From Loktanella atrilutea (lineage in GTDB: Bacteria; Pseudomonadota; Alphaproteobacteria; Rhodobacterales; Rhodobacteraceae): 64,000 nt of DNA. Both the position numbers and the translations under genes were made by a program. Positions 24,830 to 36,607 of the stretch are shown one piece after another. The number at the start of each line of letters is the position of its first letter. The stretch's first letter is position 1. The stretch is from positions 479,853 through 543,852 of the forward strand of contig NZ_FQUE01000002.1 of assembly GCF_900128995.1 (NCBI RefSeq), written 5' to 3'. The notes beneath the pieces were generated by a model that saw only the letters and a program-made list of their open reading frames with translations, had not been told where the DNA came from and did not search any database.

Positions 24830-26065
24830 TCAAACCTCGGCCAGACGGGGAAAGAAGGCGGTACGGATCGCGGGAAGCGAAGCGACGACGAAGATGATCG
24901 TCGTGACAATGGCATAGCCGGTGGCGACGGCGGTCAGGCCAAGGGGGGCCAGCAGCACCGTGTTCGCGACGACCCCCGCGGCGAGGGCCACTGTCACGGC
25001 CAGTTCCACCTGCGGCCGGTCGTTGGCCCGCAGCCAGCCGGCGGCGGCGGTCCACAGCGTGGTGGGAATCGCCACGAGGCAGAGGATCGAGACGATATCG
25101 CCGATCCCCGCCCAGTCGTCGCCCAGCAGGACGGGCACGTAATAGGGTGCGGCCAGCGCCTGCAGGATCACCACCGGACCGATCAGGCCGATCCCGGTCA
25201 GGATGCTGCCGCGCAGGGCCGCGCTGCGGTCGGCGGTCTGGGTCAGGTGCGGAAACAGCACCGTGGCGAAGGCGACGGTAAAGGCGTTCGACAGGCTCAA
25301 CCCCGCATTGAAGGCCATGAAATAAAGGCCCAGCGCCTGCGACCCCATCAGCAGACCGACGATCAGCTTGTCCGCCTGCAGGCGCAGCGCCTTGACCAGC
25401 TCCACACCCAGCACCGCCCAGCCGTAGCTGACGAAGGGGCGCAGTGGGGCGAAGCCCGCGGCGGGCTGTCGAACCCACGGATGCAGGCGACGCACGGCGA
25501 CCAGCCAGATCGGCGCGGACAACAGGCGCGGCAGGATTAGCGCCAGCGCCGAAGGCCAGAAGAGGACCAGCAGCACCGACATCAGGTTTGCGCCGACGAC
25601 CTGCGCCCCGGCAATCGACGCGGTGCGGCGCAGCTTGCCCGCACGCATCGCCAGCGCGACCTGCACCAGTCCCGCCGGCATGAAAAGATACTCGGCCCCC
25701 AGCAGCAGGATCAGCAGGGACAGCGTAACGCTGCCGCCCGTCAGCCAGAACCCGGCAGCGACAAGGGTCTGGATCGCGAACAGCCCGATACTCCACCCCC
25801 AAAAGATGCGGTGCGCCGTGGCGCAAACGGCCTCCAGCGTCTCGTCGGTGGCGGCGATGATGCGCTGACCGACGCCGGTTTCCGTCAGCGACTTCAGGAT
25901 GTCACCGGCGGCGATCGCTGTCGCAGCGACGCCGATCTGGTGCAGGTCCAGCGTTCGCGCCACCGCCATCACGACGATCAGGCGCGACGCCTTGGACGCC
26001 ACTTCGGACGCACCGTAGGCCATGAGGTTGCCGATCAGGGCCTTCGATCGTGATGTCGTCTGCAT
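24830..26065 (-). CDS. Wzx-like polysaccharide flippase
   Basis: 411-residue MOP-superfamily membrane protein with about 11-12 hydrophobic segments. The N-terminal segment LIGNLMAYGASEVASKASRLIVVMAVARTLD is typical of PST/Wzx proteins. Expected to flip the undecaprenyl-linked EPS repeat unit across the inner membrane. First gene of the minus-strand operon, divergent from the Wza-like exporter gene; the shared 198-bp intergenic region contains the degenerate palindrome at 26166-26187. Confidence 0.87.
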   Translation of the reverse strand: MQTTSRSKALIGNLMAYGASEVASKASRLIVVMAVARTLDLHQIGVAATAIAAGDILKSLTETGVGQRIIAATDETLEAVCATAHRIFWGWSIGLFAIQTLVAAGFWLTGGSVTLSLLILLLGAEYLFMPAGLVQVALAMRAGKLRRTASIAGAQVVGANLMSVLLVLFWPSALALILPRLLSAPIWLVAVRRLHPWVRQPAAGFAPLRPFVSYGWAVLGVELVKALRLQADKLIVGLLMGSQALGLYFMAFNAGLSLSNAFTVAFATVLFPHLTQTADRSAALRGSILTGIGLIGPVVILQALAAPYYVPVLLGDDWAGIGDIVSILCLVAIPTTLWTAAAGWLRANDRPQVELAVTVALAAGVVANTVLLAPLGLTAVATGYAIVTTIIFVVASLPAIRTAFFPRLAEV

Positions 26066-26165: not shown

Positions 26166-26187
26166 AACCTACCCGTCAGGATAGACC
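26166..26187. promoter_or_regulatory. Degenerate copy of the EPS palindrome in the wzx/wza divergent promoter region
   Basis: AACCTACCCG-N2-AGGATAGACC lies 77 bp before the wza-like start and 101 bp before the flippase start. It aligns without gaps to the two perfect 22-bp palindromes at 30610 and 33791, with 15 of 20 arm positions identical. Position and match suggest a weaker operator of the same regulator. Confidence 0.5.
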
Positions 26188-26263
26188 GGTATCCCGCTGG
26201 CCCTTGGACCGCGTCGCGGGATTCGCATAAGGTCGCTGCAACGACAGGTAGGCGAGGTGAGCG

Positions 26264-27493
26264 TTGGCCCATTCAATTCCATTGTGCTGCGCGTTGTCGC
26301 TCCTGATGCTGACGCCCGCCTGCACGGCCTACGACACGCCCGACAACATCGAGCCCGTGGCCACAGGAGACGCCTATCAGGCGCAGTACCGCGACCCCAG
26401 TGTGACCCGCGCGAATGCGATGTTCCTCCGGTCAGAGGCGCTGAACGCGCAGAAATGCCTTCCCTACGGCGGGCTGGACGCGAATGGCGCCGGGCTCGGC
26501 AAGGGCAGCGCGATGGCCGATGCGATCCTGCAGGGCGAGCGGCTGACCCGGAACGACCTCCTTGACGTGCGCGTCGGCGACGACCCGACCTTCAGCGGGT
26601 CCTATGTCGTGTCGCGCGACGGCACGCTCAAGCTGCCCTTTCTCGACCCGATCCAGGCCCAGGGCCGGTCCACGACAGAGGTCGAGGCCGACATATTGCG
26701 CGGCCTGCAGGCCAAGGATTTTTACGCGGATGCGCCGCAGCTGTCGGTGCGCGTCACGGATTTCGCCTCCGTCACCGTCGGCGTATCCGGCGCCGTCTTC
26801 GAACCCCATGCGGTCGAAATCGGCGGCGTGCCGGGCGATGGCCTCGACGTGCTGCGTCAGGCGGCGCTGGGCGCCTCGACCGAAGGGCGCAACCTCTCGG
26901 CAGCCCTGCGCGCGGTCGGCGGCGTGCGGCCCGACGCCGACATCTCGGCGGTCGAGGTGCGGCGCGGCGGCGTGCTCTACCGCCTCGACATGCGCGGCGT
27001 GTTCGAGGGGCAGAATGCCGTCGACATCATGCTGCTGACCGGGGACGAGGTCCGCGTCCCCAGCCGCCAGTGCTTTCAGGAAGACCTGATGCGCCCCAGC
27101 CCCATCAGCCCGCCGGGTGTCAGCCTGTTCCTGTCCAATCTGACGCAGCCCGCCAGCAACAACGCCGCGGCGGCCATCGGCCAGACGGTGCGAGAGGTGC
27201 CGTATGGCACGCGCTACCTGCAGGCGGTGATCGACGCGAACTGCGTCGGCGGGCCGCGCAGCACCAGCGCCGACCGGTCGTCTGTGCTCTTCACCCGCAA
27301 CCCGGTGACCGGCGTGTCCGCCGTGATCGAACGGGATATCGAAGATCTTCTGCGGCGTGCCGACCGTGACGACTACGATCCCTACCTGCTGCCGGGCGAT
27401 GCGCTGGCCTGCTACGACAGCACGGTCACGAACATTGCCGAAGTCGGGCGCATCTTCGGCATCCTCGGGGCCGCGACGCTCATCGCTAGATAA
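26264..27493 (+). CDS. Wza-like polysaccharide export protein (outer-membrane/periplasmic)
   Basis: 409 residues. An N-terminal export signal is followed by Cys at about residue 20 (LMLTPACTAYD), suggesting a lipoprotein, though the lipobox is imperfect. The Poly_export block is NDLLDVRVGDDPTFSGSYVVSRDGTLKLPFLDPIQAQGRSTTEVEADIL; a SLBB-like repeat follows (VTVGVSGAVFEPHAVEIGG). A C-terminal about 120-residue region is less typical. Expected to form the EPS export channel with the Wzz/Wzc-like protein at 33903. Its 3' end overlaps the convergent kinase gene by 8 bp. Confidence 0.87.
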   Translation: MAHSIPLCCALSLLMLTPACTAYDTPDNIEPVATGDAYQAQYRDPSVTRANAMFLRSEALNAQKCLPYGGLDANGAGLGKGSAMADAILQGERLTRNDLLDVRVGDDPTFSGSYVVSRDGTLKLPFLDPIQAQGRSTTEVEADILRGLQAKDFYADAPQLSVRVTDFASVTVGVSGAVFEPHAVEIGGVPGDGLDVLRQAALGASTEGRNLSAALRAVGGVRPDADISAVEVRRGGVLYRLDMRGVFEGQNAVDIMLLTGDEVRVPSRQCFQEDLMRPSPISPPGVSLFLSNLTQPASNNAAAAIGQTVREVPYGTRYLQAVIDANCVGGPRSTSADRSSVLFTRNPVTGVSAVIERDIEDLLRRADRDDYDPYLLPGDALACYDSTVTNIAEVGRIFGILGAATLIAR

Positions 27494-30008
27494 GGGCGTC
27501 GCGGGTGCGGTCCCAGACGGCGGCAAGGTCCGCGATCGCCGCTGTCACGGTCGCCGGGTCGCCCGCCTTGGCCGCCGTCTCGATCCGCTTCAGCTGATCC
27601 CGAAAGGCGGTGGCGCCGAAGACCCCGGCGCTGCCGGCGATCTTGTGCGACCGGGCCGCGACCTCTGCCAGATCGGTGTCGGCCACGTCCTGCAGCCAGA
27701 CCAGCAGATCATCCGCTTCCTGTACGAAACGCCCCGCAAGCCGGGCGTAGCCCGCGGGCCCGAGCACCTCTCGCGTTTCGGCGGCGTGATCGCGGTCGAT
27801 CACGCCGGCAGCAACGCCGGGCGCCGGTCCTTGATGGGCAGCCAGCACCTCGGCCAGCGCCGCCTTCGACAGCGGCTTCATCAGGATGCCGTCCATGCCG
27901 TCCGTCATGAAGGCATCCTGTTCGTCGCGCATCGCGTTGGCCGTCAGCGCGACAATGGGCGATTGCGCCGACGGGCCGTCGCCCTTCCGGATGGCACGGG
28001 TCGCGGTGCGCCCGTCCATCACGGGCATGCTGATATCCATCAGGATCAGGTCGAACCGTCGTGCCTGCGCCGCGGCGACGCCCAACTGCCCATCCGCGGC
28101 CTCGGTCACCCGATGCCCGCCAGCTTCAAGCATGTCGCGCACCACGGTCCGGTTGATCTCGTTATCCTCGACCACCAGCACATGCAGCGGGCGCTGCGGC
28201 GCCTGCGCCGGCGCGGCGACCTCGACGATCTCTGCCGGTTCGGCGACGGCGACCGGCAGCCTGACCCAAAAGGTGCTGCCCCGCCCCGGCGCACTGTCGA
28301 CGCCGATGTCCCCGTCAAGCGCCTGCACGAACCGCCGCGCGATGCTAAGGCCAAGGCCGGTCCCGCCGACCTCTCGGTCATAGGCGGAATTGCCGGTCAC
28401 GAAGTCGTCGAAGACGCGCGCCGCCAGATCGGCATCCAGCCCGGGGCCGGTATCCGTCACGGCAAAGGTCAGCCCGATCCTGTCGCCGTCGGGCTCTGCG
28501 GCGACCGTCACCGTGATCTTTCCGGCCTTCGTGAACTTCACCGCATTGCCGACGAGGTTCATCAGAATGTGCTGCAGGCGGTCGTGATCGGACATGATCC
28601 AGTTGTGCGGTGCCCCGTTCCAGCCCCATTCCAGCGCCGTGCCGTTCGCCGCGGCCATGCTGGTCTGGCTGTCGACGATGTCCTGCAGCAGGACGGACAG
28701 ATTCATCGGCTCCGCCCGCACGCTCATCTTGCCGGCGTCATAGCGCGTGATGTCCAGCACGTCAGAGATGTGCCGCATCAGCAGCCGGCCAGAGGTTTCC
28801 ATGTTGCGCACGAAGCGGGCCTGCTGCGGGTTCAGCTGTGTATCCTGCAACAGGTCCATGTTGCCAAGCAGACCGTTCAGCGGCGTCCGGATCTCGTGGC
28901 TCATCGTGGCCAGGAATTCCGTCTTCAGCTTTTCGTTGGCGAGGGCCGTGTCGCGCGCGGCCATCAGCTCTGCCTCGTCCGCCACCCGGCGCGAGATGTC
29001 GCGCACGAAGGCGATGAAGATCTCGCCGGCCTCCGTCACCGACGACTGGATCGACAGCTCGATCGGAAAGACCTCTCCGCTGGCGCGCATCCCCTCCAGC
29101 CGGACGCGGCCTTGGCCCACGACCCGCTTGGGTCCGCCGTTCCGCATCCGTTCCATCCCCGCGTCATGGGCGGCACGCAGATGCGGCGGCACGATGACGC
29201 CGCCCAGATCGCGCCCAACGACATCCTCGGCGAAATGACCGAAGATCGCCTCGGCCGCGGGGCTGAAGGTCATGATCCGGCCCGCAGCATCGCTGACGAT
29301 GACGCCGTCGAGCGATGTCGCGATGATCGCGTTCATCCGGGTGACGGTCTGGGCCTGCAGGTCCGCCCGCCGCGTATTCGCGGCAATCAGCCGGTTCAGG
29401 TAAAGCACGGCGACCGCCAGCGTGCCGATCAGGATCGCAAGGGCGATCGCCAGTTCCGTCAGGGTCCGGGCAACGGCGCGGCGCTGCACGTCGGATGCGA
29501 CGGCGAAAAGGTCCAGCCCCGCGGTGGACAGATCGCGCACGACGGGGCGGACGGCGTCTGCTCGGTCGCGCAGGGCCGGAAGGCTGGCCCTCAAAGCCAG
29601 ATCGTCAGAATCAATGACGGGGATGCTGTCTTCAAGGAAGGTCTGAATCTGGGCAAGCTCCGTGCGGAACCCAGCATCCGCGCGCAGGTCAGCAAAGACC
29701 CTCGCCTCGCGGATGGTGCCGATCCGGCTGTAGAAGATGTCGAACTTGCGACGCACGTCACCCAGATCGACCGGGGTCATCGTCATCCGTTTGGTGAACT
29801 CAAGAAACTCCACCTCGGTCTGGGACAGCGACCACTGGACGTTGTCCGAACTGGCGGACCCCAGCAGGCGGATTTCTCGCGAGACATTGAGGGTCAGGAA
29901 CAGGATCGCCGCAAACGCGACAAGGCCGGACACCACCGCCATGGTGCGCCCGGCCCGCTTGCGTCTGTGCGGCATCATCGCCAGATCCGTCACTCCCCCG
30001 TCGGACAT
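27486..30008 (-). CDS. Hybrid sensor histidine kinase (periplasmic sensor, PAS, HisKA, HATPase, REC, HPt)
   Basis: 840 residues. TM helices at about 24-42 and 183-205 bracket a periplasmic sensor of about 140 residues. Then PAS (about 222-342), HisKA with phospho-acceptor His371 (MSHEIRTPLNG), HATPase with N-box NLVGNAVKFT, GPG and GLGLSI G-boxes, a receiver with Asp658 and Lys711, and a C-terminal HPt with His788 (RSHKIAGSAG). All phosphorelay residues are present. It follows a periplasmic protein gene by 20 bp and has no response regulator in its own operon; the LuxR-type regulator at 33178 is the obvious partner candidate within the EPS locus. Confidence 0.9.
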   Translation of the reverse strand: MSDGGVTDLAMMPHRRKRAGRTMAVVSGLVAFAAILFLTLNVSREIRLLGSASSDNVQWSLSQTEVEFLEFTKRMTMTPVDLGDVRRKFDIFYSRIGTIREARVFADLRADAGFRTELAQIQTFLEDSIPVIDSDDLALRASLPALRDRADAVRPVVRDLSTAGLDLFAVASDVQRRAVARTLTELAIALAILIGTLAVAVLYLNRLIAANTRRADLQAQTVTRMNAIIATSLDGVIVSDAAGRIMTFSPAAEAIFGHFAEDVVGRDLGGVIVPPHLRAAHDAGMERMRNGGPKRVVGQGRVRLEGMRASGEVFPIELSIQSSVTEAGEIFIAFVRDISRRVADEAELMAARDTALANEKLKTEFLATMSHEIRTPLNGLLGNMDLLQDTQLNPQQARFVRNMETSGRLLMRHISDVLDITRYDAGKMSVRAEPMNLSVLLQDIVDSQTSMAAANGTALEWGWNGAPHNWIMSDHDRLQHILMNLVGNAVKFTKAGKITVTVAAEPDGDRIGLTFAVTDTGPGLDADLAARVFDDFVTGNSAYDREVGGTGLGLSIARRFVQALDGDIGVDSAPGRGSTFWVRLPVAVAEPAEIVEVAAPAQAPQRPLHVLVVEDNEINRTVVRDMLEAGGHRVTEAADGQLGVAAAQARRFDLILMDISMPVMDGRTATRAIRKGDGPSAQSPIVALTANAMRDEQDAFMTDGMDGILMKPLSKAALAEVLAAHQGPAPGVAAGVIDRDHAAETREVLGPAGYARLAGRFVQEADDLLVWLQDVADTDLAEVAARSHKIAGSAGVFGATAFRDQLKRIETAAKAGDPATVTAAIADLAAVWDRTRDALI

Positions 30009-30028
30009 GGGCTGTCCGCCCGACCGGG

Positions 30029-30538
30029 TTAGCGGTCCACCTCGATCCTGTCGAGTTGCCAGATGCTCCGCGAATAGACGACCTCCGACCGGAAGGCGGC
30101 GCTGCTGTCGTAGGGGTAGATGATCCAGAGCGGGCCCTTGTCGCGCACCGGCATCTCTGCGTCGTCCATCAGATAGGCGATGATCGGTCCGCCCGCGACG
30201 GCGTCAGAGACAGGGATCTCGACCGTGTAATCATTGATTGCCGTGGCCAGCAGCGTGCCGTCCTCCACCCCCAGCTGATCCATCAGATCGGCCAGCGACA
30301 CGCCGGTGAAGGTATGCGTGCCTTCCGTCCAGATCGTGCTGGTCTCGATCGTGGTGACAGGCAGGGCCATCAGTGCCGCACGATCAAAGGTCAGCGCCGC
30401 CTCGGGCGCATCGACCTCGCCGGATATGGTCAGCAGCACCTCCGGCGTGGCAGTGGGCGCATCCTGCGCCGCGACGCCCGTGGCACAGGTCATCGTCATC
30501 AGCGCCAGACCGGCGGTCTTTTGGATTCGTGCAAACAT
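30029..30538 (-). CDS. Periplasmic protein resembling the molybdopterin-binding oxidoreductase fold, without cysteine
   Basis: 169 residues with a Sec signal peptide ending near GVAAQDA (about residue 26). The mature part (VLLTISGEVDAPEAALTFDRAALMALPVTT, then FTGVSLADLMDQLG) matches the small SUOX-like domain often annotated as molybdopterin-dependent oxidoreductase. It has no Cys, so the molybdenum-ligating residue is missing and enzymatic activity is unlikely. It is 20 bp upstream of the hybrid kinase in the same operon, which suggests a ligand-binding or sensory partner for the kinase's periplasmic domain. A 22-bp palindrome lies 72 bp upstream of its start. Confidence 0.75.
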   Translation of the reverse strand: MFARIQKTAGLALMTMTCATGVAAQDAPTATPEVLLTISGEVDAPEAALTFDRAALMALPVTTIETSTIWTEGTHTFTGVSLADLMDQLGVEDGTLLATAINDYTVEIPVSDAVAGGPIIAYLMDDAEMPVRDKGPLWIIYPYDSSAAFRSEVVYSRSIWQLDRIEVDR

Positions 30539-30609
30539 GACAGGCTCCCTTGTCGATTTCCCTCTTGTCGCGCAAATCGCGGCAGAATGCATGCGGCCTT
30601 CGGGATAGC

Positions 30610-30631
30610 GACCTATCCGGACGGATAGGTC
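30610..30631. promoter_or_regulatory. Perfect 22-bp palindrome upstream of the periplasmic-protein/kinase operon
   Basis: GACCTATCCG-N2-CGGATAGGTC, 10-bp perfect arms, spacer GA. It starts 72 bp before the start at 30538 and lies 10 bp beyond the galU stop. An identical pair of arms occurs at 33791. No T-run follows in either direction, so an operator is preferred over a terminator, but its position just after galU leaves the second reading possible. Confidence 0.65.
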
Positions 30632-30641
30632 GCGCGCCGCG

Positions 30642-31529
30642 TCACGCGGCGATACGGCCTGCCGGACGGTCCCCGTCGACGATGCACCGCACGCCCGCCG
30701 CCAGATCTCCCCGCGCCAGGGCAAAGGCGACGGTGGCCTGCACGAAGCCCGCCACCGACCCGCAGTCGAAGCGTTCGCCGGCAAAGCGATAGCCGGTCAC
30801 GCCGGTGTCGACGACATCCGCGTTGATCGCGTCGGTCAGTTGCAGCTCTCCGCCGGCACCCGGTGTCAGATCGGCCAGCCTATCAAAGATCGAGGGCTGC
30901 AGGATATAGCGCCCGACGACCGCCAGTGTGGACGGCGCCCGCGCCGGATCCGGCTTCTCGACCAGACCGCGTGCCTGGGCCAGCCTGCCGTCCTGTCGGG
31001 CGACGTCCAGCACGCCGTAGGACGCCGTCTCGGCCCGCGCGACGTCCATCGTCGCCACCATGTGGCCGCCGGTCAGGCGATGCGCCGCCACCATCTGCGA
31101 CAAGGCACCTGTTTCTCCCGCGATCACGTCGTCGGGCAGCAGGACGGCAAAGGGTTCGTCACCGATCAGCCGCCGGGCCTGCCGCACCGCGTGGCCCAGA
31201 CCCAGCGGCTGCGCCTGCCGCAGGATCGTCAGCGCGCCCTCGGGCATCCGCGTCCGGTCCAGCGCCGCCAGCGCATCCGTCTTGCCCTTCGCGCGCAGGC
31301 GCTCTTCCAGCAGGGCGGCTGTGTCGAAGTAATCCTCCAGCGCGCACTTTCCGGCGGCAGAGACGAAGATGAACTCCTCGATCCCCGCCGCGCGCGCCTC
31401 GTCCACGGCATACTGGATCAGCGGGCGGTCGATCAGCGTCAGCATCTCTTTCGGGATGGACTTGGTGGCGGGCAGGAAACGGGTGCCCATGCCGGCGACG
31501 GGAAAGACGGCCTTGCGGATATGGGTCAT
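30642..31529 (-). CDS. galU: UTP-glucose-1-phosphate uridylyltransferase
   Basis: 295 residues. Makes UDP-glucose for EPS and other glycans in the cytoplasm. Family blocks: KAVFPVAGMGTRFLPATKSIPKEMLTLIDRPLIQYAVDEA at the N-terminus, LGLGHAVRQARRLIGDEPFAVLLPDDVI, and LVEKPDPARAPSTLAVVGRYIL. It lies 21 bp downstream of the WecG/sugar-transferase fusion in the same direction, fitting precursor supply for the polymer. Confidence 0.93.
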   Translation of the reverse strand: MTHIRKAVFPVAGMGTRFLPATKSIPKEMLTLIDRPLIQYAVDEARAAGIEEFIFVSAAGKCALEDYFDTAALLEERLRAKGKTDALAALDRTRMPEGALTILRQAQPLGLGHAVRQARRLIGDEPFAVLLPDDVIAGETGALSQMVAAHRLTGGHMVATMDVARAETASYGVLDVARQDGRLAQARGLVEKPDPARAPSTLAVVGRYILQPSIFDRLADLTPGAGGELQLTDAINADVVDTGVTGYRFAGERFDCGSVAGFVQATVAFALARGDLAAGVRCIVDGDRPAGRIAA

Positions 31530-31550
31530 GGTCTTAATCCTTTCTGGGTG

Positions 31551-32930
31551 TCAGTGGGCGCCGCGACCGGACACGACGGCGCGGAATGTCAGGGCGATCA
31601 ACATCAGGTCAAGCAGGATGGTCCGCGACCGGGCATAGGTCAGGTCCATGTCGATCATCTGGTCGAAGGCGATGTCGGCACGGCCCGACACCTGCCAGAG
31701 GCCGGTGATCCCCGGCTTTACCGCCAGACGCCCCATGGCGCGGGCCGGATAGGCCGCGACTTCATCCGGCAGCGCCGGGCGCGGACCGACGATCGCCATC
31801 TCGCCGCGCAGCACGTTCAGGATCTGCGGCAGCTCGTCGATGGACAGACGACGGATCACCTTGCCGACCTTCGTGATGCGCGGATCGGATTTCGACTTGA
31901 AGCAGACGCCTTCCCGATCCGACGTCGCCAGCAACGCCGCCCGCCGCGCCTCGGCATCCTGCGCCATGGACCGGAACTTGTAGATCGTGAAGGGCCGGCC
32001 GTTCTGGCCGATCCGGGTCTGCCGGAACAGCACCGGCCCCTGCGAATCCGCCTTGATCGCCAGCGCCGTCAGCGCAAGGACCGGTGCCAGTGCCACGCAG
32101 GCAAAGCCCGCCACCGTGATATCGAGCGCCCGGCGCGCCACGCTGGCACCAGAAACGCGACGCAGCACCGTCGCCCCCGCGCGCGCCATGAAGGTGAAGT
32201 TACCGGCCAGATAGCGACGTGCCAGACGGCGCGGCTCCTGGGCCAGACGCCAGATCCACTCGGACCGCGCCCGCCGCAGCCAGAGGGGGGCGCGGCTGAC
32301 GTTGCCAGCCAGAAAATCCAGCGCCGCCCCGACACCGGTGACCAGCTGCGCGTCGATCCTGTGGGCGTTGCGGTGGATCCAGATCTCCTGCAGCGGCACA
32401 CCAAGGGCGACCAGCACGATATCGGCGCCGCTGGCGTTGATATCGGCGATGACGGCATCCGTATCCTGCGCGCCGTCGAACCCGTCGCGGGTGCCGACGA
32501 CCCGCAGGTGCGGAATGCGCCGGATCAGCGTGGCGGCCGCCGCATCCGCTGTGCCGGGCGTGCCGCCGAACAGATAGACCGCCTTGCCGGTCTTCGCCGC
32601 CCGCGCCAGAAGCGCCGGGATCAGGTCCGTACCATTGAGGTTGCCCGCAAGGCGCTGGCCCGTCATCCGGCCCGCCAGGGCGATACCGATCCCGTCTGGC
32701 AGCAGCACGTCGGCGCAGCGCACCGCCGTCATGTAGGTGCGGTCCCGATGCATCACGTTGCAGCAATGGGCATTGATGAAGAAGGCAGTGCGCTTTCCGG
32801 GTGACAGAAGCAGGTCGACAGCCCTTTCGGCCGTGCTGTCCAACAGCGTCAGGTCGAGTGCGGGCAAGTAGCTCTGTGCGTCCTCAAAGGCATCCGGAGT
32901 GGTCAGGAAATCGAAGGTTGCGTGTTTCAT
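31551..32930 (-). CDS. Fusion of WecG/TagA/CpsF glycosyltransferase and initiating sugar-phosphate transferase
   Basis: 459 residues with two enzymes. Residues about 25-225 are a GT26 WecG/TagA domain (TAFFINAHCCNVM, LLPDGIGIALAGRMTG, LFGGTPG, ALGVPLQEIWIHRN). Residues about 262-459 are a bacterial sugar transferase of the WcaJ/PglC core: RRALDITVAGFACVALAPVLAL, GPVLFRQTRIGQNGRPFTIYKFRSM, RRLSIDELPQILNVLRGEM, VGPRPALP. Only one hydrophobic segment precedes the catalytic core. It probably links the first sugar phosphate to undecaprenyl phosphate and adds the next sugar. It begins 247 bp from the divergent response regulator. Confidence 0.9.
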   Translation of the reverse strand: MKHATFDFLTTPDAFEDAQSYLPALDLTLLDSTAERAVDLLLSPGKRTAFFINAHCCNVMHRDRTYMTAVRCADVLLPDGIGIALAGRMTGQRLAGNLNGTDLIPALLARAAKTGKAVYLFGGTPGTADAAAATLIRRIPHLRVVGTRDGFDGAQDTDAVIADINASGADIVLVALGVPLQEIWIHRNAHRIDAQLVTGVGAALDFLAGNVSRAPLWLRRARSEWIWRLAQEPRRLARRYLAGNFTFMARAGATVLRRVSGASVARRALDITVAGFACVALAPVLALTALAIKADSQGPVLFRQTRIGQNGRPFTIYKFRSMAQDAEARRAALLATSDREGVCFKSKSDPRITKVGKVIRRLSIDELPQILNVLRGEMAIVGPRPALPDEVAAYPARAMGRLAVKPGITGLWQVSGRADIAFDQMIDMDLTYARSRTILLDLMLIALTFRAVVSGRGAH

Positions 32931-32945
32931 CTGGGGTGTCCCGTT

Positions 32946-32960
32946 TGCAGATCATCTGCA
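32946..32960. promoter_or_regulatory. 15-bp perfect palindrome just upstream of the WecG/sugar-transferase fusion gene
   Basis: TGCAGAT-C-ATCTGCA, 7-bp perfect arms, located 16-30 bp before the start at 32930 and 218 bp before the divergent regulator. Different in sequence from the 22-bp EPS palindromes. Possibly an operator or a 5'-UTR element; no factor can be named. Confidence 0.4.
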
Positions 32961-33177
32961 TTCAGATCAATGAAAACAGGGGTTTGGCGCAACGAAGCGA
33001 CGGGACAGGTGCAGGGGTCAGACGGGCCGCGGGACAGCCGGGCGGTGACCCGCCCCCCTGCCGTGGGTTGGTGAACATATCCTTAATGGTTAAGAGACTC
33101 GCCGAATGTGCATCACATTCAGCCTTTGATTGGCCACACTCCCGGATTAAGAACATCGTAACCATGAGGGACACGTC

Positions 33178-33792
33178 ATGAGAGTATTGATCGCAGACGA
33201 CCATGATCTTCTGAGGGACACGCTGGTCATGTATCTGGAGGGTCAGGGCGGGATCGAGACCGCCTCGGTCGGCAACTTCGCCGATGCCTGTGCCCGGATC
33301 GCGGCGGACGATCCCTACGACCTCGTCCTGCTGGACTACAACATGCCCGGCATGAACGGCCTTGCCGGCCTGCGTACGGCCATCGCCATGGGCACCGGCC
33401 AGCGCGTCGCCCTTATCTCCGGCGAGGCGACGCGCCGGATCGCAGAGGATGCGCTGGAAGCCGGTGCAGCCGGTTTCGTGCCGAAGTCGCTGCCCGCCAA
33501 GTCGCTGATCAATGCCGTCCGCTTCATGGCCATGGGCGAGCAATACGCGCCGATCGACTTCATGACGGCGGTCGAGGAAAAGGTGACGAACCCGCTGGCC
33601 GACAAGCTGACCGCGCGCGAACTACAGGTCCTGCAGGGCCTGACCGAAGGCAAGTCCAACAAGGAAATCGCCCGCGATCTGGATATCCAGGAGCCGACGG
33701 TCAAGCTGCACGTCAAGACGCTCTACCGCAAGGTCGGTGCCGCGAACCGCACGCAGGCCGCGATGATCGCCCGAGAGGCCGGACTTTACTGA
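33178..33792 (+). CDS. LuxR/NarL-family response regulator in the EPS locus
   Basis: 204 residues. Receiver domain with Asp-Asp at 7-8, phospho-acceptor Asp53 (LLDYNMPGMNG) and Lys at about 104 (FVPKSLPAK). The C-terminal LuxR HTH (about 140-204) reads LTARELQVLQGLTEGKSNKEIARDLDIQEPTVKLHVKTLYRK. Placed between the initiating-transferase operon (divergent) and the wzc-wzy operon, 110 bp before wzc. Likely the transcriptional regulator of EPS genes; the palindrome starting in its stop codon is a candidate target. The phosphodonor is probably the hybrid kinase at 27486, by inference. Confidence 0.88.
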   Translation: MRVLIADDHDLLRDTLVMYLEGQGGIETASVGNFADACARIAADDPYDLVLLDYNMPGMNGLAGLRTAIAMGTGQRVALISGEATRRIAEDALEAGAAGFVPKSLPAKSLINAVRFMAMGEQYAPIDFMTAVEEKVTNPLADKLTARELQVLQGLTEGKSNKEIARDLDIQEPTVKLHVKTLYRKVGAANRTQAAMIAREAGLY

Positions 33793-33812
33793 CCTATCCG
33801 GGCGGATAGGTC
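33791..33812. promoter_or_regulatory. Perfect 22-bp palindrome upstream of the wzc-wzy operon
   Basis: GACCTATCCG-N2-CGGATAGGTC with spacer GG, arms identical to those at 30610. It overlaps the response-regulator stop codon and ends 91 bp before the wzc-like start. Its position matches an upstream activator or operator site; no T-run follows, which speaks against an ordinary terminator. Confidence 0.65.
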
Positions 33813-33902: not shown

Positions 33903-35348
33903 ATGTCCTACGCCCCAGCCGACACCACGCTGATCGCCCCGCGTCCCAAACCCGCCAAAGGCCGTATCAGGCGCGCCATCGTCGGTGGCCGCCTCGGCGA
34001 TCTGGGACGTCTGCCACGCTACGCGGCCTTCGCGCTGCTGGGCGGTGCGATGATCTGGGCCCCGATCACCGGCTACCTGCGCACCGCGCCGCTGAAATAC
34101 AAATCCTCCACCTCGCTGATCTTGCCCGGCTCCGGCGCCTCCGCCTCCTTGAACCTGAACGGCATCGGGCAGGCTTCGTCCTCCGCGAACTCCGCTTTTT
34201 CCAGCAATGCGGTCAGCCCGACCGAGACCTACAAGCGCCTGCTGGCCGCCGACCGGATTCTCGCCGCCGCGGCACGATCGCTCGACATCAGCCAGGGAGA
34301 GCTTGGCCAGCCCCGCGTCGAACTGGTCGACCAGACCAGCCTGATCCATTTCGAGATGACCGGCGGCAGCCCCGAGGATGCGCAGGCCCGCGGCGAGGCA
34401 ATTCTGACCGCCTTCTTCCGCGAACTCGACGCGCTCCGCGCCGACGAGGTGAACACCCGCGAGGACAGCAGCCTGCAGGCGATCGCCGACTACCGCGACT
34501 CCGTCGGCGGCACACGGGCCGAGATCTCGCGTCTGCAGGATGAAACCGGCCTGCTGTCGGTGAAGCAATACGACGTGCTGCTCGACCGCAACCTGGCGCT
34601 CGAAACCGAAATCCGCAGCCGTGCCGCGGCACTTGCGGACGCCGATGCAGCGGTCGCGGCGATGTCGCGGCAGCTGGGCCTCGATCCCCTGACCGCGGCA
34701 AGGACGCTGAAGCTTTACGCAGACGGGTCCTACCTCGCCCTGCTGGACGACATCGCCCGGTTCGAGGCGGCCCATGCCGAAGCCTCCGCCCATTATGGCC
34801 CCGCGCATCCCAAGGTAGTCGCCGCCCGGGACGGACGCGACAAGGCCCGCACCGCCGCACTGCAACTGGCCTCTGCCACGACAGGACTGGACATCGCCAC
34901 GCTTGCGACCCTCGACCTCGCCCCGCAGGGCGCGCGCGCAGAGCTGCTGTCGGACCTCGTCCGCAAGGATGTCGACCGGGCCGGCCTGAAGCAGGAACTG
35001 ACGACGCTCAAGGCGCAGCACGCCGAAGGTCAGGCCGACCTGAACCGCAAGGCCGCCGCAGCCGCGCAACTTCAGGATCTGGAACGGGACTTTTCCGTTG
35101 CCGAGGCGGTCTTCGCCTCCGCCATCGCCCGCGCGCAGTCCAGCAAGTCCGACGTCTATGCTTCCTACCCGCTGGTGCAGGTGCTGGAAAACCCCTCGCT
35201 GGCCGACCGCCCCTCGTCGCCCAACCGCAAGCTTGCCATCGCCGCTGGCATCGCGGCCACGCTGATGATGCTGATGGCCCTCGCAATGGGCTGGGTCCGG
35301 CTGGCCCTGATCAGCCGCCTGCTTTCCAAGACACCGGTCGCCGCATGA
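33903..35348 (+). CDS. Wzz/GumC-like polysaccharide co-polymerase lacking the tyrosine-kinase domain
   Basis: 481 residues. TM1 at about 40-60, a large periplasmic domain with Wzz N-terminal block (PLKYKSSTSLILPGSG) and heptad-rich helices (about 170-410), the PNRKLAIAAG block before TM2 (about 450-475), and a short cytoplasmic tail. No Walker A follows, unlike Wzc. Controls chain length and couples polymerisation to export. SD AAGGAGA 8 bp upstream. It overlaps the polymerase start by 4 bp. Confidence 0.87.
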   Translation: MSYAPADTTLIAPRPKPAKGRIRRAIVGGRLGDLGRLPRYAAFALLGGAMIWAPITGYLRTAPLKYKSSTSLILPGSGASASLNLNGIGQASSSANSAFSSNAVSPTETYKRLLAADRILAAAARSLDISQGELGQPRVELVDQTSLIHFEMTGGSPEDAQARGEAILTAFFRELDALRADEVNTREDSSLQAIADYRDSVGGTRAEISRLQDETGLLSVKQYDVLLDRNLALETEIRSRAAALADADAAVAAMSRQLGLDPLTAARTLKLYADGSYLALLDDIARFEAAHAEASAHYGPAHPKVVAARDGRDKARTAALQLASATTGLDIATLATLDLAPQGARAELLSDLVRKDVDRAGLKQELTTLKAQHAEGQADLNRKAAAAAQLQDLERDFSVAEAVFASAIARAQSSKSDVYASYPLVQVLENPSLADRPSSPNRKLAIAAGIAATLMMLMALAMGWVRLALISRLLSKTPVAA

Positions 35349-36607
35349 CCGACCTCAACCCGGTCGAGCGTATGGTCTATCGCACGCTGGTCTGGACATG
35401 GCCCTTCTATGCCATCGGCGCCCTTTACGTCGTGGGGCCTGTGCTGGCGTGGTCGCTGGGTGGCCTTGCCGTTCTGATCCTCTACCTCGGCGACGCCGTG
35501 CGCGACGACCTGCGGGCCACGGGGCCGGTGCCCGTCGTGGTCTGGCTCTGGATCATCGGCATGGCCGTCATGCTGATTGCCTTGTGGGTGGGTCACCTGA
35601 ACTGGTCGCTCGGCCTCAAGCAGACCATCAAGTCCTCCATCGGCTGGGCCAAGGGCTGGGCGCTGCTGGCGCTCTTTCCCTTCGCCGGTGCGGTGCTGCC
35701 GATCCGGCGCGGCGTTCTGGTCCGCGGTCAGTGCGTCGTGGGCCTTGGGACCCTGATCCTTGCCCCCCTGATGCTGGCCGCACCGCACATCGGCCTGCCG
35801 GAACGGATCTTCACCTCGCCGCTCAAGGCGATCGGTGGACCGGGGCCTGAATATTTCTCGGTCTTCATGTTCACCTGGGACCCGGCCAGCTGGACGCCGC
35901 GCTGGCAGTTCTACGCCCCGTGGTCGCCCTTCGCAGCTCTTCTGGGCGTGGTTCAGGTGCTCTTCGCGCTGGAAGACCCGGACCGCCGCTGGCGTCGCAT
36001 CGGGATCGCCGCGGGTCTTCTGATGATCTTCGCCTCCAAGTCGCGCATGGGCCTCGTCGGCCTCGCCGCCTGCACCGTCGCCCCGCGGATGATGCCCCTG
36101 ATCCTGCGGGGCTGGGCGTGGCGCGTCCTGTCGGGCCTCACCGCCTCCCTCGCCATCTCCGGCGCGGCGCTGGCCGCGGCGGCCAAGGATGCGGTCTCCG
36201 CCTTCAAGGGGGCCCGCGCCGACAGCACCCGCGTCCGCGAGACGTTGCAACGCATCGCCACCGAACGCTGGCGGGCCGAGGCGGTCTGGTTCGGCCACGG
36301 CACCGTGCAGCCGGGGTCCCACGCGGTCGAATACATGCCCATCGGCAGCCATCACACGTGGTATGGCCTGCTCTTCGTCAAGGGTCTGGTGGGTTTCGGC
36401 GCCCTGCTGGTGCCGCTCGTCTGGCAGACCCTCCTGACCCTGCGCGACGCCACCTGCAGCCCCCGCGGTCGCCTGCCCATGGGCCTGATGATGACCATCA
36501 TCCTGCTGACCTTCGGCGAGAACCTCGAGATCGAAGCCTACCTCCTGTGGCCCGCCCTCCTCCTGCTGGGCATTCATGCGCAAGAGATGCAGAGCAGCGA
36601 GATCTGA
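35345..36607 (+). CDS. Wzy-like O-antigen/EPS polymerase or ligase
   Basis: 420-residue inner-membrane protein with about 10-11 hydrophobic segments and the Wzy_C-type large periplasmic loop. The block RMGLVGLAA, a long Arg-rich loop (about 280-330) and GSHHTWYGLLFVKGLVGFGALLVPL fit the family, where H-x-TWYG-type loops carry the functional residues. Translationally coupled to the co-polymerase by a 4-bp ATGA overlap. Expected to polymerise flipped repeat units in the periplasm. Confidence 0.83.
   Translation: MTDLNPVERMVYRTLVWTWPFYAIGALYVVGPVLAWSLGGLAVLILYLGDAVRDDLRATGPVPVVVWLWIIGMAVMLIALWVGHLNWSLGLKQTIKSSIGWAKGWALLALFPFAGAVLPIRRGVLVRGQCVVGLGTLILAPLMLAAPHIGLPERIFTSPLKAIGGPGPEYFSVFMFTWDPASWTPRWQFYAPWSPFAALLGVVQVLFALEDPDRRWRRIGIAAGLLMIFASKSRMGLVGLAACTVAPRMMPLILRGWAWRVLSGLTASLAISGAALAAAAKDAVSAFKGARADSTRVRETLQRIATERWRAEAVWFGHGTVQPGSHAVEYMPIGSHHTWYGLLFVKGLVGFGALLVPLVWQTLLTLRDATCSPRGRLPMGLMMTIILLTFGENLEIEAYLLWPALLLLGIHAQEMQSSEI

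Follow-up and report, generated by a model that had tools for sequence, protein, structure and literature searches.

The Rcs phosphorelay joins a hybrid kinase, an Hpt step and a LuxR-type regulator, and an RcsAB inverted-repeat box stands upstream of the wza capsule operon. The NarL site has a 7-2-7 arrangement. In Agrobacterium tumefaciens, a different kind of surface polysaccharide control has been described: the part of the review drawn on here reports that PruR, a pterin sensor, works with DcpA, which acts via c-di-GMP, and that Trp160, Tyr104 and position 102 of PruR bind pterins (PMC13259868). According to the same source, PruR-DTB pairs, in which PruR is combined with a DcpA-TorS-BaeS-type kinase, are broadly represented in Proteobacteria; the terms "response regulator" and "LuxR" are absent from its main text, and in the part drawn on here the output of the PruR-DTB pairs is unnamed.

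The locus compared with these systems lies in a 64,000-nucleotide stretch of Loktanella atrilutea DNA, which was analysed as a whole and is called the window. Its features are as follows.

24830..26065, minus strand: flippase-like gene, divergent from wza and sharing its box (Pfam Polysacc_synt_3)
26166..26187, no strand: weaker box in the intergenic region from which flippase and wza diverge (core 26168-26185, 2 of 14 core positions mismatched)
26190..26194, plus strand: extra half-site TATCC at the wza box, seen in the sequence
26264..27493, plus strand: wza-like polysaccharide export gene, predicted target (Pfam Poly_export, SLBB_2)
27486..30008, minus strand: DTB-like hybrid kinase with PAS, HisKA, HATPase, REC and Hpt domains (WX7E motif at W59-E67)
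30029..30538, minus strand: pruR-like gene for a periplasmic pterin-binding-protein homologue (Pfam Oxidored_molyb; PDB 7kos)
30603..30607, minus strand: possible extra half-site TATCC, 4 nt beyond the core at the pruR promoter
30610..30631, no strand: box upstream of the pruR-kinase operon, perfect palindrome (core 30612-30629)
30642..31529, minus strand: galU-like gene whose stop codon adjoins the 30610 box (NCBIfam galU 304 bits, cut-off 326.8)
31551..32930, minus strand: EPS-locus gene encoding WecG and bacterial sugar transferase domains (Pfam)
33178..33792, plus strand: LuxR/NarL-type response regulator, candidate binder of the boxes (Pfam REC and GerE)
33791..33812, no strand: box upstream of wzc, perfect palindrome overlapping the regulator stop codon (core 33793-33810)
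33903..35348, plus strand: wzc-like chain-length determinant, predicted target (without a Pfam match; NCBIfam match weak and under the cut-off)

The earlier note on this DNA had described a periplasmic protein and a kinase behind the 30610 box; this description stands and is refined here, as the two resemble a PruR-DTB pterin-type sensor pair. The pruR product, at 169 aa, has the length (about 170 aa), the SUOX-type fold family and, by eye, the signal peptide of a PruR, and it matches solved pterin-binding proteins in the PDB (7kos, "Pterin Binding Protein", E 2.9e-30). Residues N102, Y104 and W160 stand at the same residue numbers as the pterin-binding positions of A. tumefaciens PruR and are conserved in 51, 50 and 51 of 53 homologues. 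The Mo-ligating Cys is absent, the sole Cys of the protein being C18 in the presumed signal peptide. The window PruR is a pterin-binding-protein homologue and a predicted pterin sensor. In the adjacent kinase, the periplasmic WX7E motif falls at W59-E67. Residues of the kinase were counted over 49 pairs, of which 8 rows were gapped at key places and 41 were scored: W59, the HisKA H371, the REC D658 and the Hpt H788 were invariant in all 41, and position 67 held E in 37 rows and D in the other 4. TorS ranked first among the NCBIfam matches to the kinase, and NCBIfam RcsC scored 252 bits, below its cut-off of 920. Judged from sequence, the window pair has the tested PruR-DTB features.

The window pair is like PruR-DTB in being a two-gene pair whose kinase carries the WX7E periplasmic motif and PAS, HisKA, HATPase and REC domains, and unlike PruR-DTB as presented in the part of the review drawn on here (PMC13259868) in having an Hpt domain and, around it, a LuxR/NarL-type regulator of its own, a predicted operator of palindromic form and EPS genes. 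As with PruR-DcpA in the same account, a PruR-type pterin sensor is tied to surface polysaccharide control; unlike that pair, for which the account gives DcpA acting via c-di-GMP, the output predicted here is transcription through a phosphorelay (PMC13259868). The likeness to Rcs is that of a functional analogue only (a hybrid kinase, Hpt, a LuxR-type regulator and an inverted repeat before wza), and both the sensor and the box sequence differ. The regulator shares REC and GerE domains with the NarL/FixJ response regulators, and its predicted site is 7-N4-7, unlike that of NarL. Among the papers listed in a literature search, within which the primary PruR-DTB paper did not fall, none described such a regulator, operator or EPS output, and priority for the three is not established. 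The matches listed in a search on the two arm words were all unrelated by title.

To return to the boxes themselves, inspection of the sequence reproduced the perfect-arm copies of GACCTATCCG-N2-CGGATAGGTC reported at 30610-30631 and 33791-33812, with all 20 arm positions matching, and the 15-of-20 arm match at 26166-26187, in which 5 of 10 arm pairs are complementary. The spacings given for them (72, 91 and 77 bp) are correct within 1 bp for the starts of pruR (30538, minus strand), wzc (33903) and wza (26264, where the start codon is TTG). The palindrome itself is real, and its extent was revised: the conserved core is not 10-N2-10 but 7-N4-7, CCTATCC-N4-GGATAGG. Likewise, the wza site holds up and its assignment to wza alone does not, the site at 26166-26187 being common to wza and the divergent flippase gene. 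A further TATCC at the 4-nt offset was found in 9 of 29 box-bearing pruR promoters and at no other offset within 45 nt, in 1 of 13 box-bearing wza promoters (the window's own) and in 0 of 15 wzc promoters; speculatively, this half-site may leave room for one more regulator subunit.

The two perfect copies stand out from chance. When the window was shuffled 100 times with its dinucleotides preserved, the 22-mer never appeared, even at 3 mismatches, and a scan of the organism's whole genome (46 contigs, 4.2 Mb) for the 20-bp form, allowing 3 mismatches, gave four places, namely the two perfect copies and two 3-mismatch places elsewhere. The core was exact at 2 places, both in the window; none were listed at 1 mismatch, and 15 places, the wza site among them, were listed at 2 mismatches. 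At up to 3 mismatches, there were 137 places vs 115 for the reversed control, and 16 of 1981 permuted-arm palindromes matched the flippase-wza intergenic region as well as the wza site did. Taken alone, the wza site is indistinguishable in sequence from the background of its own genome, so its support comes from conservation in relatives.

Comparison with relatives revealed a conserved site upstream of wza/flippase, wzc and pruR-kinase in many members of the family. The 20-bp form with up to 1 mismatch occurred in 21 of 147 genomes, the own genome included (reversed control, 1), and the exact core in 34 of 295 family genomes at 47 places (reversed control, 0 genomes). By inspection, 32 of these 47 copies are in EPS, pruR or regulator loci and 15 are elsewhere, with G283:C30:498696 counted uninspected. 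Within the genus, all three boxes are kept in G003 and G004 (0-1 mismatch); the wza box is exact in G001 and has 1 mismatch in G002, whose wzc box is exact. The sole match in G005 is away from these genes, and there are none at 1 mismatch in G006-G008, whether or not the locus is present. In alignments of 4-6 sequences, the box forms an island within diverged DNA.

Two sets of loci were scanned for a box with up to 2 core mismatches within 300 bp upstream of gene starts. The first consisted of the window and 80 loci (81 in all) from genomes with a regulator homologue: the first 70 listed, leaving out the window and a second G002 copy, and 10 hand-picked further down, of which one (G085) was already known to bear a box. 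A box preceded pruR in 30 of 53 cases, wzc in 15/19, wza in 13/19, the flippase in 13/19 (at wza's own site), WecG in 12/20, the regulator in 26/79 and galU in 2/10. The control classes gave 0/19 for the gene after wzc, 3/52 for the kinase and 3/38 for a glycosyltransferase, shuffled upstream regions gave at most 0.10 per gene class, and sixty permuted-arm palindromes matched at most 3 of 91 regions vs 58 of 91 for the true word. The second set took the 80 named loci best by regulator identity (63-88%), hence a closer group, and 68 new loci were counted after twelve first-set loci had been dropped. Here the box was found before pruR in 52/58, wzc in 28/38, wza in 25/33 and the regulator in 28/68, and before the control genes in 0/38 (gene after wzc) and 2/59 (kinase). 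The distance from core to pruR start was 45-101 bp in the second set and 60-106 bp in 27 of 30 first-set cases, the others being 149, 158 and 216 bp. These results support the operator proposed in the earlier note, as the box recurs upstream of equivalent genes; since both sets were picked via the regulator, neither tests the tie between box and regulator.

We consider it probable that CCTATCC-N4-GGATAGG is the operator of the 33178 regulator, which would be controlled by the PruR-kinase pair upon pterin sensing and would have the EPS genes and the sensor genes as its targets. In this scheme, the signal would run from pterin through PruR, the kinase and the regulator to the box, and from there to the EPS genes and the sensor's own operon. 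Phosphate would pass from H371 of the kinase to D658 of its REC domain, on to H788 of the Hpt domain and then to D53 of the regulator, a dimer of which would sit on the two 7-bp arms. The phosphorylated regulator would probably activate the genes for polysaccharide assembly and export together with its own sensor operon, giving feedback. The regulator promoter of the window is free of a box (its best match has 5 mismatches), so autoregulation here would go through the sensor operon only. Points that speak against the scheme are this missing box, the background-like wza site, the 15 exact family copies outside the EPS, pruR and regulator loci, and the presence of the box at only 12 of 31 divergent pruR promoters.

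Activation over repression is the least certain step of the model. The same regulator acting on the same operator as an EPS repressor is a possibility that we regard as unlikely, and the sensor class can restrain polysaccharide production: loss of PruR in A. tumefaciens raises it, in the part of the account drawn on here (PMC13259868). The box could not be placed against a promoter: a search for sigma-70-like promoters found none and the placement of -35 and -10 elements around the box gave no clear signal, for which reason the class of activation is left unclaimed. Against repression, the box lies 36-216 bp, mostly 60-110 bp, before the start codon over all targets, positions that would suit an upstream activator if leaders are short.

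The earlier note had named the LuxR-type regulator at 33178 as the simplest binder, and it is the best candidate. The protein has the REC domain, the phospho-acceptor Asp (D53, conserved in 81 of 81 aligned homologues) and the GerE HTH of the NarL/FixJ class; among named NCBIfam subfamilies none scored above cut-off (best, ErdR with 107.6 bits vs 390), and its best solved relatives include NarL, VraR, ChrA and DevR. A homologue at E 1e-40 is present in 148 of 295 family genomes, and box and regulator co-occur: the homologue was found in 32 of 34 exact-box genomes vs 116 of 261 without the box (Fisher 7e-9, overstated because kinship is ignored), and the box in 22 of 49 genomes whose homologue has at least 60% identity vs 12 of 246 others (9e-12, overstated for the same reason). 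The regulator-pruR-kinase neighbourhood is conserved: of the 100 pruR homologues that rank best among those listed from the 295 family genomes, at least 87 have the regulator within 6 kb, at a median of 919 bp. This adjacency in gene order is the indication least affected by bias that regulator and sensor pair belong together. As a separate observation, at L068, L072, L073, L076, L080 and L092, a second kind of locus has a regulator homologue beside a different hybrid-kinase-like gene, with 23-28% identity to the window's and with no pruR found nearby.

The form of the box also differs with the recognition helix of the regulator, of which there are two types over 81 homologues, EPT (46) and EVT or EAT (31 and 4). 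C..G was present in the box at 49 of 56 sites of EPT loci vs 3 of 13 for the other type (Fisher 1e-5), the scoring pattern having ignored the tested base, and a doubly changed A..T form was found at 5 sites, only at non-EPT loci. The 28 EPT rows of a 40-row tree fall into a single supported clade; the helix types are divided by one branch, and therefore the co-variation of box and helix may be a single event. A protein other than the 33178 regulator binding the same DNA operator is improbable in our judgement given this co-occurrence, adjacency and co-variation. On its side, the tie between box and regulator is one of association, 2 of 34 exact-box genomes have no regulator homologue at E 1e-40, and some loci retain the box with a different helix type: L071, L088 and L095 keep the standard box, and L158, whose regulator is of the EVT type (L126), is a further exception (L157 and L158 were fetched for their exact box and excluded from the counts).

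A non-canonical terminator or intercistronic RNA hairpin following galU and the regulator gene, which the earlier note had offered as the competing reading, is very improbable and contradicted by the relatives. A stop codon does immediately precede each perfect copy on the sense strand, and the RNA folds of both are stable (z -3.03 and -2.82), as expected of a perfect palindrome. A few exact family copies elsewhere resemble terminators as well: L125 has a T-run and L005 a T-run between convergent genes. However, neither perfect box has the G+C-rich stem followed by a T-run at a gene 3' end that marks an intrinsic terminator, and terminator calling found nothing at either. The box is retained between divergent genes, namely flippase and wza (13/19) and regulator and pruR (12/31), and it is kept when the gene upstream changes, being found before pruR (up to 2 mismatches) in 6/8 cases after galU and 12/13 after WecG, with neighbour genes identified solely through homology to proteins of the window. 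An exact box precedes wzc in G002 as well, with WecG divergent and no regulator gene found in the interval; the regulator gene of this genome is on another contig (L150, L025). Across 73 sites with up to 3 mismatches, 428 arm pairs were consensus, 55 broken and 21 G-U, and just 7 were changed on both sides with complementarity kept, a pattern that, by base comparison, is one of a conserved DNA word and not of an RNA stem. A GNRA loop preference was absent as well (8 sense vs 5 reversed, 45 spacers). Gene arrangement, the paucity of compensation and the lack of a called terminator led us to reject the RNA stem. Many exact copies genome-wide, the outcome that would have told against an operator, did not appear in the scan, and the reading as a genome-wide repeat was dropped for this genome with its 2 exact copies.

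With the operator of the 33178 regulator as the preferred reading, we incline, with reservations, to the view that Rhodobacteraceae hold a complete pterin-to-polysaccharide phosphorelay, made up of a PruR-DTB pair, its dedicated NarL-type regulator and, as operator, a 7-N4-7 site drifting with the recognition helix, in which transcription rather than c-di-GMP would switch EPS assembly and export as well as the sensor. If true, this phosphorelay would supply the output that the PruR-DTB class has lacked. The box would offer these pairs a testable output (regulator, operator and polysaccharide targets) in a large number of marine bacteria that can be cultured. As a simple motif, it would also help to predict EPS regulation throughout the family, and the naturally occurring variants of regulator and operator form a series in which the drift of binding specificity can be studied.

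Some copies and genes merit separate mention. Among the exact copies elsewhere, L113 and L118 lie between convergent genes and the one in G301 after the kinase gene. The exact copy in L121 (G303, box at 1501) is outside an EPS locus and near a GGDEF-like open frame (by eye), a possible link to c-di-GMP. L153 (G003) and L155 (G004) hold 1-mismatch copies in near-identical sequence with no EPS homologue nearby. Finally, neither the wzc-like gene nor its downstream neighbour (window 33903-36607) matches a Pfam family; the latter is 71-91% identical beside wzc in the EPS loci inspected and is possibly an unnamed EPS polymerase or ligase.
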